Shown here: positions 16,230 through 47,874 of the stretch, one piece after another
Position numbering within the stretch: the first letter of the stretch is position 1
Layout of the letters: each line of letters starts with the position of its first letter
From: a virus
Length of the DNA stretch: 47,874 nucleotides
Strand: one strand, 5' to 3'
Virus record (IMG/VR): IMGVR_UViG_3300027513_000023
Coordinates: 1 to 47,874 of that record
Notes under the pieces: generated by a model
What the model saw: the letters and a program-made list of their open reading frames with translations, nothing else
The model's database searches: none
Told to the model about the DNA's origin: nothing
Translations under genes and position numbers: made by a program

Positions 16230-16856
16230 ATGGCTAAGCCGACAAATAGCACGTCCTCTATCGTCGTCGTCCCGTTTCGGACTGATCAGCTGATCACGAT
16301 CCAGCGGGAAGACGGCATCTATGTCGCCATCCGACCGATCTGCGAGCGGTGCGGAATCGACTGGTCATCCCAACTGCAACGCATCAAACGGCACCCGATT
16401 CTCGCCGAAGCCGTGGTTATGACAACCACACCTTTCACGCGTCACGGGCAGGAAGAGGCCTGCCTGAGGCTCGATTACCTCAACGGTTGGCTGATGGGGA
16501 TCGACAGCAAACGGGTCAAGGAGGAGGTCCGCGCCGACGTCATCGCGTATCAGCGCGAGTGCTATCAGGTGCTGTTCGAGCACTTTTACCGCAAGACCGT
16601 CGGCTCTGGAGCGCGGCCGAGACGAGGATTGACAGAGGAAGAGCGAGCGGTGCGGGCGGACCTCGCCACGCGGCGGCAGCGTGTTAATGAAATACGGGCC
16701 GCGACACGGACGCTGCAAGAAATTCGCTTAACCCAAGGCGTTAAAGCGGCGGCAGCAGCCGCGCCCGAACTCTTTGCGCCATTCGGCATCAATCTCGAAG
16801 TCGTCGAGCCGCCGCAAGGTGAACTGCCGATTGACGACAACGGCAGGGTGCACTGA
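16230..16856 (+). CDS. ant: P22-type antirepressor (Ant N-terminal domain)
   Basis: The first 115 residues match the P22_AR_N domain: VVPFRTDQLITIQREDGIYVA, then IRPICERCGIDWSSQLQRIKR, VVMTTTP, LRLDYLNGWLMGID, and VIAYQRECYQVLFEHF. P22 Ant binds and inactivates the lytic repressor. The C-terminal part is a charged helix (EEERAVRADLATRRQRVNEI) with a short acidic end, differing from P22. TAAGGAG lies upstream of the ATG. Together with the Cro/CI-like gene it suggests a lysis-lysogeny switch even though no integrase is seen. Confidence 0.85.
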   Translation: MAKPTNSTSSIVVVPFRTDQLITIQREDGIYVAIRPICERCGIDWSSQLQRIKRHPILAEAVVMTTTPFTRHGQEEACLRLDYLNGWLMGIDSKRVKEEVRADVIAYQRECYQVLFEHFYRKTVGSGARPRRGLTEEERAVRADLATRRQRVNEIRAATRTLQEIRLTQGVKAAAAAAPELFAPFGINLEVVEPPQGELPIDDNGRVH

Positions 16857-39912: not shown

Positions 39913-41259
39913 TCAGCCGAAGGCTCCCGTGGAAGAAGCAGTGCTTTCCATGGCTGCAACGAAGCGTTGGTTAAGTACAACCCAGCCTTCCATAAACTTG
40001 TACCCCCAACTCCTTAGTTGGTTTAACGGGTCGCTCTTATCAGCATCGCTTAACTTGAACCACTGCACATTATCCAGCTTCAAGGTAGCGAACGCTTCCT
40101 GCCCGAAGACATAGGTGCGGTACACCGTAACGCCGGTGGCCGGGGCGGATGGCGGGATCTGGTAGAGCCCGAGGCCGGTGATGGTGGCGACGGTGCCGGG
40201 CGCCAGCTGGATCGCATGTCCGCTGTAAGGGCCGCTGGTCGGGCCGCTGGTGGTCAGCCCGAGATTGACTGGCGCGGCGCCGGTGCCGACCCCGACATAG
40301 ATCGCGTAGGTGAACCCGGCGGTCGAGGGGACCGTGACGGCGATGCCGCCGGTGGTAACCGAGATGTCGTTCGAGAGTTGGTAGATGCGCGATTCGTAGA
40401 AATTTTGGTTATCCCAGCCGGTGACCTGAACCGTGTAGGTGGCGGTGGCCAATGACCCGACGGCGTTGGCGCCCTGCACCGCAGCGACGCCGGTCCACGA
40501 TGGCATCATATTGCTTTCGCAAAACACGATGCCGCCCCAGATACCGTGCTCGTTGATATAGAGGTGGTCCGCACCGGAGTACTGGTAGGTCTGCACCACC
40601 AGCGGGTTGTTGCGCAGATCCTGCATGACCAGCGGGTTGCCGATCGCGACGTAGTGCGCTGCCTGGCCGGGGGCCTTTTTGCCCTCGTTGAAGTTGTAGT
40701 TCATGTTGCGCAGCACGGTCTCGCCGGTCTGCCCGTTCCACATCGGCGCGCCGATGACCTTCATGTTTGAATAGGTGCGGGTGACCGTGGTCGGGTCGAG
40801 GTTGTTGCCGGCGACCAGCGCGGCGCGGCTGCCGGCCTGCGCTACGTAGTTCACCTGGGTCACGCCGTTCAGCATGTTCCAACCGTTGCGCTCCTTCAGC
40901 TGCATCATCTGCTGGCCGAGGAGGTCGGAGCCTTTGGCGAGGAGGTCGTCGGGGACCGTCTTGACCGCGACATCGGTGAAGACTAGGCGACCGCCCCACT
41001 GGAGCGCGACGCCGGTGACCTGCTCGAAGCCCATCTGCTGCGGCGTCGGCGGCACACCCTCGGCGATGGGCGCAGTGGGCAACGGCAGGTAGGGCCAGCG
41101 ATTGGCGGTCCAGGTGACCCCAGCGCCCTCCTTCATTTGCTTTACGTCGGCGAACTGCGTCAGCACGATAAAGCGCTGCGCGTTCTGGAGTGCCCGCCGC
41201 TCGATCGTGCGCTCGATTGCGCCAGCGTAACTGGCTGATGTGTTCGTCGTCGTCGCCAT
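39913..41259 (-). CDS. Major capsid protein, N4-gp56 family
   Basis: The 448-residue product follows the N4 gp56-like HK97-fold pattern: ERRALQNAQRFIVLTQFADV, then WTANRWPYLPLPTAPIAEGVP and LQWGGRLVFTDVAVKTV, with LGQQMMQLKERNGWNMLNG forming the long spine helix. Around 285-370 a beta-rich insertion (TYTVQVTGWDNQNFYES to GAAPVNLGLTTSG) extends the usual domain. The gene follows the scaffold in transcription order, as expected. It forms the icosahedral shell. Confidence 0.85.
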   Translation of the reverse strand: MATTTNTSASYAGAIERTIERRALQNAQRFIVLTQFADVKQMKEGAGVTWTANRWPYLPLPTAPIAEGVPPTPQQMGFEQVTGVALQWGGRLVFTDVAVKTVPDDLLAKGSDLLGQQMMQLKERNGWNMLNGVTQVNYVAQAGSRAALVAGNNLDPTTVTRTYSNMKVIGAPMWNGQTGETVLRNMNYNFNEGKKAPGQAAHYVAIGNPLVMQDLRNNPLVVQTYQYSGADHLYINEHGIWGGIVFCESNMMPSWTGVAAVQGANAVGSLATATYTVQVTGWDNQNFYESRIYQLSNDISVTTGGIAVTVPSTAGFTYAIYVGVGTGAAPVNLGLTTSGPTSGPYSGHAIQLAPGTVATITGLGLYQIPPSAPATGVTVYRTYVFGQEAFATLKLDNVQWFKLSDADKSDPLNQLRSWGYKFMEGWVVLNQRFVAAMESTASSTGAFG

Positions 41260-42457: not shown

Positions 42458-42642
42458 TCAGCCAGCCGGACGGGAACACCCAGGATAGTCGAGCCGTAAG
42501 CGCCGATGCAGTGTGTCCCCTCGCATTCCCGCCTCAAGCTGCGCAACTCCGATTCCGACAATTCCACATACACCGGGGACCCTCCATAGAGCCGCCGGTA
42601 GCGGCAGAGGAAATCGCTCACACGAGAAAGCGTGACCATCAC
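42454..42642 (-). CDS. Small hypothetical protein
   Basis: The 62-residue product starts MMVTLSRVSDFLCRYRRLYG and contains ELSESELRSLRRECEGTHCIG and GSTILGVPVRL. It is bridged by four-base overlaps to the portal gene and the GcrA-like gene, which supports translation. Cys residues are too few for a clear motif. Function unknown. Confidence 0.6.
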   Translation of the reverse strand: MMVTLSRVSDFLCRYRRLYGGSPVYVELSESELRSLRRECEGTHCIGAYGSTILGVPVRLAE

Positions 42643-44894
42643 ATGTTCCGGGGAAGCTGCGTACCGCCGGCGGCGGACGCCTGATCCGGATGGATCATCC
42701 CGGCGGGGCTCTTAATGAGCCTCGGCCCGGCCGGCATCGCCCCCGGCTGCGGCTGCTGCGCACCCGGCGGCCGACCAGGCCCCTGACCCTGCGGCCCCGG
42801 CGCGCCCTGCGCCTGCTGTTGCATCTGCTGCATCATTGCGGCCTGCGCCTTCATATTGCGCTGCGCTAGATGGGCCTGGAGATGCACCCGCATCGTGCCG
42901 GCGAGGTCGCCCGTCTCCTGGATGCCGCGCATCGTCACCGGGATGTGCTGCTCGTCGTTGTCGAGGGGATGCACCGGCACCTCGAACCCGGCCGCCAGCA
43001 TCTCGTTCTCCTGGTCCTGCGGGATCGTCAGCTGGTCGCGCTGATCGACGATGATGCCCTCGCCGAGTTCGGGTCCAAAAGCGTTGGTAACCATCTGGCT
43101 GACCAGCTTGGAGAGCCGGATCTGCACGCCTTCCGCCGCGAGGCGCTGCGCCAGCGCCGGGTTCTGCAACACATTCAGCAGCGCGGTGCCCTGCTGCGCC
43201 ATCATCGCGTTCTGCCGGACCTGCTCGCCGCCGCGCCAGACAAAGGTGAAGCCGTTGCGGTTCTGCAGTGGCGAGACCGACTGCATCTTGGCCTTGCGGC
43301 CCTCCTCGCCGAACATGCGAACCAAGAGGTCGCGGTCGCGGAACTGGTAGTCGAGGTCGACGATCCAGGCCACCGCCTCGGTGAGCACCCCTTCCAGCGC
43401 GGTGACCCGCATGGCGGTGGTCAGGAGATCGACCGCCTGCTCCTGCGCCACCATTGCCTGGCTCGGCTTGTCGGCCCGGGTCTGCTGCGGCAGCATCGAG
43501 GGGTTGACGCTCAGCGTCTGGAAAATCGCCTGGAGGGCCATCTGCACGCGCGTTGCTGCGCGCGGAGTAAGGTCAGGAAATGTAAGAAGCTCGACCGAAC
43601 CGGGTGGCGCATCCCAGACGGCGCCAACATTGTAAACCAGCGGCCCATCGACCTTTTCGGGATCGCGAGCAACGATTGGCGCCGCCGAGAGTGTGGCCGC
43701 ATCGGCGCCCTCGTTAACCGCATCGTTCGCTTCATATTGCAGCGATTCCACGTACTTGATGAGGCTGGGGCCTTTGATCGCGCCGGACATCTTCTTGACC
43801 GGGCGGCTGATCAGCGGACAGCGGTCGTTCCAATAGGGGTTTCGCTTGGCCCCGAGCTGCGCCCGGTTCGGGCCGAAGAAGACGCGGCAGAGGCGCTTCC
43901 TGCCCTTCTCGGCGTATCCCTTGTCGCTCAGCGGCAGCATCGCCCACGTCTCGAAGATTTGCGCCGTCTTGCCCTTGTCGTAAATCCCGACCTGTTCCAG
44001 CTTGTGCTTGTCGGTGTCGCGGTGCTCGCTCTCGGCGTTGGTCATCGAGTCGAGGAGCCCGTCGGCCTCGTCGTCGCGGATATTGCCGGCGGCAACCATC
44101 GCCTTGATCTTCGCCCTCGACCAGCGCCGCAGGATGGTCACGCTGCCGCCGCAGGCCAGCGCCTCCTGCACCGTGTCGGCGGTAAACGGCAGGATCAGCA
44201 CATCGTTGTCGGCGAGAACCTCCAGGCACGGATAGCCCTCGACGATGTCCTCCTCGACGATGTCGTCGATCTCCTCACCGGGCATTTCCTGGCCGGTTTG
44301 CGGGTCGATGGGGCCATGTGTTTCACGTGAAACAATCTGCCGCTCCAATTCGGCCCAGTCCATGTAGAGGTTGTACTGACCCTCGACGACGCCGTTGCGG
44401 GCGAGTGGTTCCGCCACTTGTGTTTTGACGCTGCCCTCGCGGATATAGTGGTCGAGGATAGCGACTAGTGCGCCTTCGGTTGAACCGTCCGAAGCGATAG
44501 CTTGGACATAGCGACCGCCCTGCGGGAATAATTGGTTCACGTCGCGGGTAACGATCGCCTCGGCGCCGTCGTGGATGATCGGGAAATAGATATCGGCGAT
44601 ACCGTTGTAGTATCTGTGCTGGTTCGCCTCGCAGTTGTAGCAGTCCCAGTAATCCTGGTTCTTGTCGGCCCGATCCCTCTGGTCCTCGTAGCCGCGCTTG
44701 ATATCGTCGAACAAATCGTCGAGGCGGTGGCGGATACCGGATTTGGGCTTCGCTCCGGAAGGCGGCCGGCGGCCGAGCAGATCCGCGTCCCGGCCCAACG
44801 GCTCCGGACGCGCCGGCTCGGCCTCCTCCATCTCTTCTTCTTCAGGAAGCTCGTCGTCTTCCAGATTCGTATTCTTCCCGTTCATCGGCGGCAT
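42639..44894 (-). CDS. Portal protein
   Basis: The 751-residue product has a charged N-terminus and then a core typical of podovirus portals of the P22-like size class: DLFDDIKRGYEDQRDRADK, NGIADIYFPIIHDGAEAIVTRD, LEQVGIYDKGKTAQIFETW, RNPYWNDRCPLISRPVK and PSLIKYVESLQYEANDAVNEG. The Gln-rich C-terminus (MKAQAAMMQQMQQQAQG) forms a barrel-like tail in related proteins. The portal is the dodecameric ring through which DNA enters the head. The reading frame carries a perfect parS-like site at 44319-44334. Confidence 0.82.
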   Translation of the reverse strand: MPPMNGKNTNLEDDELPEEEEMEEAEPARPEPLGRDADLLGRRPPSGAKPKSGIRHRLDDLFDDIKRGYEDQRDRADKNQDYWDCYNCEANQHRYYNGIADIYFPIIHDGAEAIVTRDVNQLFPQGGRYVQAIASDGSTEGALVAILDHYIREGSVKTQVAEPLARNGVVEGQYNLYMDWAELERQIVSRETHGPIDPQTGQEMPGEEIDDIVEEDIVEGYPCLEVLADNDVLILPFTADTVQEALACGGSVTILRRWSRAKIKAMVAAGNIRDDEADGLLDSMTNAESEHRDTDKHKLEQVGIYDKGKTAQIFETWAMLPLSDKGYAEKGRKRLCRVFFGPNRAQLGAKRNPYWNDRCPLISRPVKKMSGAIKGPSLIKYVESLQYEANDAVNEGADAATLSAAPIVARDPEKVDGPLVYNVGAVWDAPPGSVELLTFPDLTPRAATRVQMALQAIFQTLSVNPSMLPQQTRADKPSQAMVAQEQAVDLLTTAMRVTALEGVLTEAVAWIVDLDYQFRDRDLLVRMFGEEGRKAKMQSVSPLQNRNGFTFVWRGGEQVRQNAMMAQQGTALLNVLQNPALAQRLAAEGVQIRLSKLVSQMVTNAFGPELGEGIIVDQRDQLTIPQDQENEMLAAGFEVPVHPLDNDEQHIPVTMRGIQETGDLAGTMRVHLQAHLAQRNMKAQAAMMQQMQQQAQGAPGPQGQGPGRPPGAQQPQPGAMPAGPRLIKSPAGMIHPDQASAAGGTQLPRNM
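44319..44334. promoter_or_regulatory. Perfect chromosomal-type parS sequence inside portal gene
   Basis: TGTTTCACGTGAAACA is the exact palindromic consensus of bacterial parS, the site loaded by chromosomal ParB. It spans codons GTT TCA CGT GAA ACA (Val-Ser-Arg-Glu-Thr). All are rare choices in this GC-rich gene, where GTC, TCG, CGC, GAG and ACC prevail. The window shows no parA or parB gene. Confidence 0.85.
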
Positions 44895-45614: not shown

Positions 45615-47723
45615 TCATCTCCTTGCTGGCATTGCGGTCCTATAACGGTTGCCGTGGCGATCCTCTCCCCACGGCTGTTGCGTATCCTCGTCTTCGCCAT
45701 CGGCGGCAAGCGTTTTGCGCTGCAGGCCCATAAACGATTCCAGCCCCTCCATCAGGAGGCGGTACGGCCCCTCCTCAGCGTATTCCTGGAGCCGGCCGCG
45801 CACCAGGGCTCGGGCGTAACCGCCGGCCAGGCTTCGGCATATCCACCGGGCGCGGGGGGAGACCGCGACAGCGGGCAGGCCGCGGCTGATGCGGCCAAGC
45901 AGATCCTGCAATTGAACCTGGCCGGCCGGAGCCTGGCCACCCAAGCGCAGATCCGCCGGAATCTGGCGGATTGCCTGAAGAAGCCCGACATTCGTGTACT
46001 TTTCCTCGTGGTGCGGCGGGACGACCCAAGTCGGCGGTTGGTTGCGGGTGACGAGCCGGTCTGGGACCGGCGCCTTCAGCATCGCGGCCCAGGAGCGCGG
46101 CCGGTCCTGCAAGAGCGCCTCGCGCGGCGAATCTGCGACGAGGATCGACTCATTATATATGGGCTCCGTCAGCTCGCCCGGATTGCCCTCCCGCACCCAG
46201 TCCCGCAGCAGAAGGAGGCGGCCGTCGTGAAACTGGCAGAGCACCGCCGCGGTCATGCTGCCGGTCGCGTTGGCGACCAGGAACAGCGGCCTGGTCGGGT
46301 CGTGTTCCAGATCCGGCACGATATGGTCGGCGCCGAAGCCCTCGTAGACCGGGAGACCCGGCCGCATCTGGAGCGCATAGGCGAGCGCGTTCGGCGCGTC
46401 GATCTTGCCGGTCGGATAGTTCAGCAGCTGCTCGGTCAGGGCCGGGAGCGGCTGGGCGAATTCGCATTCGCGGGCGGCGAAGAAGGGTTGCAGACCCCGA
46501 ATAAAATCGAGTTTGCCGCGCGGCGCTCGGACGCCGCGCACCGGCAGATAGGTGCCCCGCCGGACCATCTCGTGCCGCAGCGGCTGCAGCAGGAACTGTT
46601 CCAGACCGTCAAGCTCCACCCCGACCCAGACAGGGTCATAGCGTTCGGCAATGTCAAACGCCAGAGCCACGATTTCGTCGGGAAGAAGAAACTGTGCATC
46701 GGCGGCCCAGACGACGAGGCGGTTGCTGACCCACGACCAGACGGCCCAGCCGGTGGTCGCGCTGGTAGAGCCCACCGTCCTGGCCGGGTCGATCATCGCG
46801 TAGCAGGCTTGCCAGGTGCGCTCTCGCGGGGCGACGCGGATCATGTCCCGGGTGAAAATCCGGTCCGATTCCGAGAACGCCCGGCAGAGCATCTCGCGCT
46901 CCCAGACCGCGAGTTCGCCGACCCGCTCGTAGCCCTGGCGCTCGCGGTCGATCTTGGAAAGCGGCCAGACTTCCGGCCAGGAGGCCTTGCGCTTGCCGTC
47001 CTCGCCCAGATACTCGACCGGGTAGGTCTGGCACGGCCAGCCCCACTCCTTTTCGAGCTTCACCGGCAGGGATTCGGCGTCCATCGGGGTGGCGCGGATA
47101 CGGACCTTGCGGTTCGGCGCGCAGGCCGGCAGCAGCTCGGAGAGAAACCAGCGCAGCGTCTTGCGCCGCTGGTCCGGCGTCTGGACCGAATCCGGGCTTT
47201 CCACGTCATCGACGAAGATGAAGTCGGGCCGGTGATCGAGGTGCTTGATGCCGCGGATATCCTGGTCTCGACCGATGGCCTGGATGCACACCCCGGTCGT
47301 CGTCACCAGCTTCGTTTGGGTCCAGGCATCGCCCTTGAGATCGCCGAAGGCGGCCTGGATCCAGGGGTTGTTCATCAATTCGTAGGCAACGGCCGCGAGG
47401 CGTTCCGCCGCCCGGGTCTCGTTCGAGGAGATGATCACGATGTTGCGGTGCGCCATCAGGCAGGCCGCCAGCACGATGTCCTCCTCGCCCAGCGTGGATT
47501 TGGCGCTGCCCCGGAAGGCGAGCCGGATGGTGTACTGGTCCGTCGACCAAAAGTCGGCCACGAGGTCTTCGTGGAACTCGGCCGGCGGGGTTGGCACGCC
47601 GTCATACTGGTGACGGTGGGCAAAAAGTACTTCGTGACTGGCCCACTTATCCTCGGCCAGGATCTGGATGATCTGCTTTTTGGCGGCCAGGACGGCAATC
47701 GCGTCCGGCTCGGCCGTCTTCAT
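45615..47723 (-). CDS. Terminase large subunit with extra C-terminal nuclease-like domain
   Basis: The 702-residue ATPase-nuclease drives DNA into the head. The ATPase has a Walker A variant RGSAKST (71-77) and a Walker B strand FIFVDDVESPD (168-178). The nuclease (about 300-460) has MIDPA with D312, WVGVELDGLEQFLL, and ALTEQLLNYPTGKIDAPNALA. After about 475 a second segment, LFLVANATGSMTAAVLCQFHD then GRLLLLRDWVREGN, copies the first strands of a terminase RNase-H fold but has Asn and Thr where the catalytic Asp should be. This gives a longer protein than usual and a probable degenerate duplication. It overlaps the upstream small membrane gene by four bases. Confidence 0.85.
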   Translation of the reverse strand: MKTAEPDAIAVLAAKKQIIQILAEDKWASHEVLFAHRHQYDGVPTPPAEFHEDLVADFWSTDQYTIRLAFRGSAKSTLGEEDIVLAACLMAHRNIVIISSNETRAAERLAAVAYELMNNPWIQAAFGDLKGDAWTQTKLVTTTGVCIQAIGRDQDIRGIKHLDHRPDFIFVDDVESPDSVQTPDQRRKTLRWFLSELLPACAPNRKVRIRATPMDAESLPVKLEKEWGWPCQTYPVEYLGEDGKRKASWPEVWPLSKIDRERQGYERVGELAVWEREMLCRAFSESDRIFTRDMIRVAPRERTWQACYAMIDPARTVGSTSATTGWAVWSWVSNRLVVWAADAQFLLPDEIVALAFDIAERYDPVWVGVELDGLEQFLLQPLRHEMVRRGTYLPVRGVRAPRGKLDFIRGLQPFFAARECEFAQPLPALTEQLLNYPTGKIDAPNALAYALQMRPGLPVYEGFGADHIVPDLEHDPTRPLFLVANATGSMTAAVLCQFHDGRLLLLRDWVREGNPGELTEPIYNESILVADSPREALLQDRPRSWAAMLKAPVPDRLVTRNQPPTWVVPPHHEEKYTNVGLLQAIRQIPADLRLGGQAPAGQVQLQDLLGRISRGLPAVAVSPRARWICRSLAGGYARALVRGRLQEYAEEGPYRLLMEGLESFMGLQRKTLAADGEDEDTQQPWGEDRHGNRYRTAMPARR

Positions 47724-47830
47724 GGCCCGAGCCAGTGCGAGCCGGGCCCGTGCGCCATGCCGTAGAGGAGCAGCGGCACGGCCAGCGTGGCGGCGAGGAT
47801 GACGATGGCGAGCATGGCGGGGCCGCTCAT
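47720..47830 (-). CDS. Small membrane protein upstream of terminase
   Basis: The 36-residue frame starts MSGPAMLAIVILAATLAVPL and continues LLYGMAHGPGSHWLGP, a single hydrophobic helix followed by a short polar end. Its stop overlaps the terminase ATG (ATGA), and its start overlaps the stop of the truncated edge gene. The position and the coupling support expression. It parallels the other miniprotein at 121-228. Function unknown. Confidence 0.55.
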   Translation of the reverse strand: MSGPAMLAIVILAATLAVPLLLYGMAHGPGSHWLGP

Positions 47831-47874
47831 AGCGGATCGATCCCCAAGCGCTCGGCCCGCTTGAGCCAATCGGC
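47827..47874 (-). CDS. C-terminal end of edge gene, runs off right edge
   Basis: The last 15 residues read ADWLKRAERLGIDPL and end in TGA overlapping the start of the membrane gene. This ending is typical of the family whose N-terminal half lies at 1-124, where AYLRxWI helices come before a WLxxAExxGxDPL end. The two pieces are probably one gene with an internal stretch missing. Joining the ends directly would give a different frame, so some bases (not a multiple of three) are absent. Confidence 0.6.
   Translation of the reverse strand, partial: ADWLKRAERLGIDPL

Follow-up and report, generated by a model that had tools for sequence, protein, structure and literature searches.

The presence of a bacterial centromere-like sequence within a structural gene of a phage raises the question of whether it is the DNA or the protein that is being preserved and, if it is the DNA, which protein would read it. 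The window, i.e., the whole stretch of 47,874 bases analysed here, contains the exact 16-mer TGTTTCACGTGAAACA at 44319-44334, which shows 0 mismatches to the chromosomal parS consensus and lies in frame inside the portal gene, as an earlier note on this DNA had claimed. ParB-parS systems are usually ascribed to chromosomes, and to plasmids and phages with their own parAB. The expectation of that note that a perfect 16-mer would very rarely arise by chance was also borne out, with only 1.9e-6 exact copies predicted in the window from base composition (the GC content of the virus contig is 0.637). Dinucleotide shuffles of the window gave 0.06 matches at up to 3 mismatches, and no second parS-like site was found by a whole-window scan even when 3 mismatches were allowed.

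Table 1. Positions in the window of the parS site, its carrier gene and other genes discussed in the text
Feature	Position	Strand	Remarks
parS palindrome TGTTTCACGTGAAACA	44319..44334	.	exact chromosomal consensus; synonymous positions conserved in relatives
portal protein gene, site carrier	42639..44894	-	751 aa; residues I187-T192 = IVSRET; PHROG 1216; 45 viral-contig homologues
terminase large subunit	45615..47873	-	phrog_38, E 2.5e-52; upstream of portal; open at window end; kept in relatives
major head protein	39913..41259	-	phrog_1357, E 2.3e-29; downstream of portal
Ant/P22_AR-type antirepressor	16230..16856	+	phrog_524 1.5e-41; PF10547 7e-31

The assignment of the carrier ORF as a portal gene is based on a weak PHROG match (phrog_1216, E 7.6e-5) together with its position between the terminase and the major head protein (Table 1). 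Elsewhere in the window, a structural protein harbors an arabinofuranosidase B-like domain (PF09206; 29335-31329, minus strand) and is perhaps a tail enzyme, a phage protein (15383-16114, plus strand) has a PEP-CTERM sorting motif (PF07589) at its end, which is unusual in a phage, and an IS1595-type transposase (PF12762; 5068-5985, plus strand) is located within the phage contig.

Among the portal relatives collected from viral contigs (n=45), the exact 16-mer was found in 25, while a further four differ by one mismatch, which is located at the outermost base in L130, L131 and L155 and at the base next to the outermost in L141. Every (I/L/V)VSRET in the relatives, in portals down to 38% identity, is written as a third-position T followed by GTT TCA CGT GAA AC(A/C); the codon before VSRET varies among ATT, CTT and GTT, encoding I, L or V, and the T that it contributes to the palindrome is constant. 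Codon statistics were calculated for 19 non-redundant portals, with codon identity scored where the amino acid is equal. The identity was 1.0 for the I, V, S, R and E of the site and 0.72 for its last T, against a portal mean of 0.64, and the three best of the 477 codon windows were all situated on the site. Elsewhere in these 19 portals the site codons account for small shares of their respective amino acids (GTT 8.7%, TCA 2.8%, CGT 4.3%, GAA 20% and ACA 4.3%), the product of site-codon usage being 9e-7, which agrees with the earlier description of five consecutive non-preferred codons. Moreover, no identical nucleotide run shared by six divergent portals is longer than the 17 nt that cover the site. 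Since the codons are identical in portals of 38-100% identity, the earlier proposal that selection acts on the DNA and not on the protein is strongly supported, and the check suggested at that time, namely a search for related phages encoding the peptide with different codons, was run on the relatives and left the proposal standing. The parS in the portal gene is under DNA-level selection.

The peptide itself does not dictate the codons, because the L223 portal, derived from a Rhodospirillales MAG bin, has HVVSRQ without parS in the ordinary codons GTC GTG AGC CGG CAG. The remaining relatives comprise five fragments that begin beyond the site, three distant portals and eight outgroup portals, the last of which possess neither the peptide nor the site. 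The site is missing from several relatives of the same family (L149-L153, L156, L160 and L161), so that it is not essential to the wider family. On the portal tree two changes of the site/no-site label are needed, for which one origin followed by loss and two gains are indistinguishable because the key rows are long branches.

Near-complete genomes of the clade carry one site each (up to 1 mismatch), in the portal gene. The exception is one species with a second perfect parS in another, large gene, where it is again read as VSRET (GGVSRETPG). In this species the portal site is seen in G004 and the second perfect site in G012. These records share two stretches, one of 19.6 kb at 99.97% identity and one of 11.2 kb at 99.98%, whose order would fit a single genome of about 46.6 kb with circular permutation. 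In G017 and G021, both without the portal site, none of the near-parS sites (2-3 mismatches) is read as VSRET, and these sites possibly arose by chance. G017, the record behind L153, contains three parS-like sites with 3 mismatches (27539, 29563 and 37696), more than expected, which are possibly degenerate sites or reflect a host with another parS variant.

The absence of parA and parB genes, remarked on previously, was supported for the window and for the relatives searched. ParB_N (PF02195) was absent above the cut-off from the window and 23 relatives, and a ParA-type ATPase (PF13614) was absent from the window and 12 relatives, with several of the records being fragments in both cases. The sole weak PF02195 match, in G020, has a Rad52-like sequence on inspection, and a phage-encoded ParB was thus rejected, as was a phage-encoded ParABS of the P1/N15 type, for which neither parA nor parB was found in the window or the relatives. 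The phage therefore combines a host-type parS with no detected parB, which is the arrangement of the phi29 type. A family search of the window disclosed no tyrosine or serine integrase, while the Ant-type antirepressor hints at a life cycle that is temperate or deferred. With an antirepressor present and no integrase found, a plasmid-like or deferred phase of this phage is possible.

The comparison with known systems made in the earlier note was right in that P1 and N15 encode their own ParB and sites, but it overlooked the published precedent of phi29 and Spo0J. As related in PMC9437464, which cites Meijer 2005, the chromosome of the virulent Bacillus phage phi29 is trapped in the spore by the host Spo0J/ParB. 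The resemblance is that phi29 is a virulent phage which uses the ParB of the host chromosome without parAB of its own, as the present phage would do. The phi29-like phage B103 carries the same exact 16-mer, again as VSRET, in gene 15. In contrast with phi29, the present clade belongs to another phage family, probably has a non-spore-forming host, carries the site in the portal gene and has no known link to Spo0A or sporulation. P1, N15, cyanophage Mic1 and the extrachromosomal prophages of mycobacteriophages likewise bear a parS-type centromere on a phage genome, but they encode their own ParA/ParB with a cognate site, whereas none was found here and the site is of the host-chromosomal type. 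The parS of bacterial chromosomes consists of the identical 16 bp, which here are located on a phage, in a structural gene and without adjoining parAB. The CtrA-site phages of Alphaproteobacteria (PMC9437464) similarly borrow a cell-cycle DNA-binding protein of the host through sites in their genomes, although the protein and the site are different and the CtrA sites described there are regulatory and mostly intergenic or in terminal repeats.

The orphan site is not restricted to this clade. The exact 16-mer is present in 286 of 50,697 phage records, compared with one for a control palindrome, and in at least 120 IMG/VR stretches, compared with 11 and 2 for two control palindromes that share its composition and its ACGT centre. 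Many of the 286 records are near copies (87 are Listeria phages), with 27 organism first names among them; Escherichia, Salmonella and Klebsiella are not among the ten commonest names, a weak sign that phages whose hosts lack ParABS (Enterobacterales) are depleted of the site, but neither is Mycobacterium, which is not a genus devoid of ParABS. ParB_N scored above the cut-off in 3 of 100 IMG/VR records with the site, a share that may in truth be higher because many of these records are fragments. Where it falls within a coding region, the site mostly translates as VSRET or FHVK, the third frame having a stop, and the genes concerned encode portal, terminase, DNA polymerase, primase, endolysin, adaptor, scaffold and other proteins. 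It is kept in homologous sets of unrelated phages, namely L045/L101/L119 at 50-63% protein identity and L092/L109 at 74%. In gene 15 of Bacillus phage B103 it is read as NVSRETSK in an apparent linker, Arthrobacter phage Ranunculus carries it in the portal gene and again 2.2 kb further on, and the lytic Listeria phage P100 is among the carriers. Within the literature searched, which left most subscription journals and bioRxiv outside, no general report of orphan parS in phages was found. On balance, we are inclined to regard the orphan host-type parS as a common, independently evolved phage device, found also in lytic phages of non-sporing hosts; it would allow phages to borrow the segregation machinery of the host generally and not only for spore entrapment.

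Regarding the host, a single-sequence scan of genome contigs for prophages revealed no portal relative, while a profile scan of genome contigs identified five MAG contigs with portal relatives, none of whose portals (0/5) contains the 16-mer. These MAG bins, which are weak host evidence, are assigned to Rhodospirillales, Acetobacteraceae, Kiloniellaceae, Burkholderiales and Eremiobacterota, mostly groups without known sporulation. In three of the five MAGs the same 16-mer adjoins a canonical chromosomal parA-parB pair, subject to the same weakness of a bin as host evidence.

These sequence comparisons are most economically read as recruitment of host ParB, and the phage probably uses the chromosome-sorting proteins of its host without encoding its own. 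Host ParB, a CTP-dependent clamp, would load on the phage DNA at the site and subsequently spread; the host ParA gradient, perhaps with SMC loading, would then place the phage genome in the nucleoid, and daughter cells would inherit that genome in a slow, deferred or plasmid-like infection. Binding of host ParB to the phage site is the firmer part of this proposal, and segregation or positioning of the phage DNA as the resulting benefit is suggested with less certainty. For the chromosome of P. aeruginosa to be segregated, a single parS is sufficient, as stated in PMC4368675. It appears to us rather probable that selection on the DNA has preserved a functional orphan parS here, on which host ParB loads and spreads and thereby places or segregates the phage genome. 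Against segregation it may be argued that the phage could be strictly lytic, in which case segregation would be of little benefit. Positioning or segregation was ranked first, a decoy second and control of transcription or packaging third on account of the economy of the host-ParB reading, the phi29 precedent and the sufficiency of a single parS.

As a decoy, the site on replicated phage DNA would titrate host ParB off the chromosome, disturb both segregation and division of the host and favour phage production, which we judge unlikely but worth keeping in view. Division in alphaproteobacteria is linked to ParB through MipZ, even one site could draw off a spreading clamp where the genome replicates to high copy number, and the presence of the site in lytic phages such as Listeria P100, as well as the 5-6 sites in 5.9 kb of some microviruses, speaks for such an effect; however, most clade genomes keep one site, where additional copies would be expected of a sponge. 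More doubtful still is that ParB spreading represses the late operon and delays lysis until ParB is displaced, or marks the DNA for packaging. The clade site is indeed placed about 3.5 kb into the terminase-portal-head block, but a role in late transcription or packaging, as suggested in the earlier note, is weakened by the occurrence of the same orphan site in genes of other phages such as those for DNA polymerase, primase, endolysin, adaptor and scaffold, where its position shows no fixed relationship to late promoters or to packaging. Because the sites are situated in so many unrelated genes, a portal- or packaging-specific role is unlikely. We consider it improbable that the palindrome is an operator or recombination site for a protein encoded by the phage, in place of host ParB: many genes of this phage are without known function and might include such a reader, but the exact chromosomal parS consensus recurs in numerous phages that are unrelated to one another and have unrelated hosts, and the phage encodes no ParB_N protein above the cut-off. 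Hardly any weight is given to preservation of the VSRET peptide, of an mRNA hairpin or to chance, since the synonymous positions are invariant with rare codons, the small hairpin that the palindrome can form is disfavoured by a fold no better than shuffles (z -0.53), with no compensatory changes seen and the whole 16-mer including the hairpin loop kept, and the control palindrome is found in 1 phage record versus 286.

A clade of phages whose host is probably non-sporing thus preserves a host centromere, as DNA, in a structural gene, and the orphan site extends to several hundred phage records outside it. Whether phages use host ParB can now be tested directly in model systems, including B. 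subtilis with B103-like phages, P100-like Listeria phages, and Microbacterium, Gordonia and Ruegeria phages, and such use may bear on carrier states, pseudolysogeny and the intracellular place of phage DNA.

Clusters of the exact site were also observed. Two bajarodino viruses of 5.8-5.9 kb in INPHARED, PQ006099.1 and PQ006149.1, carry about 5 and 6 exact parS, respectively (10 and 12 strand-wise places), and five-site clusters of exact parS are present on the IMG/VR contigs L044 (10535-11462, beside a terminase gene) and L017 (2657-3444).
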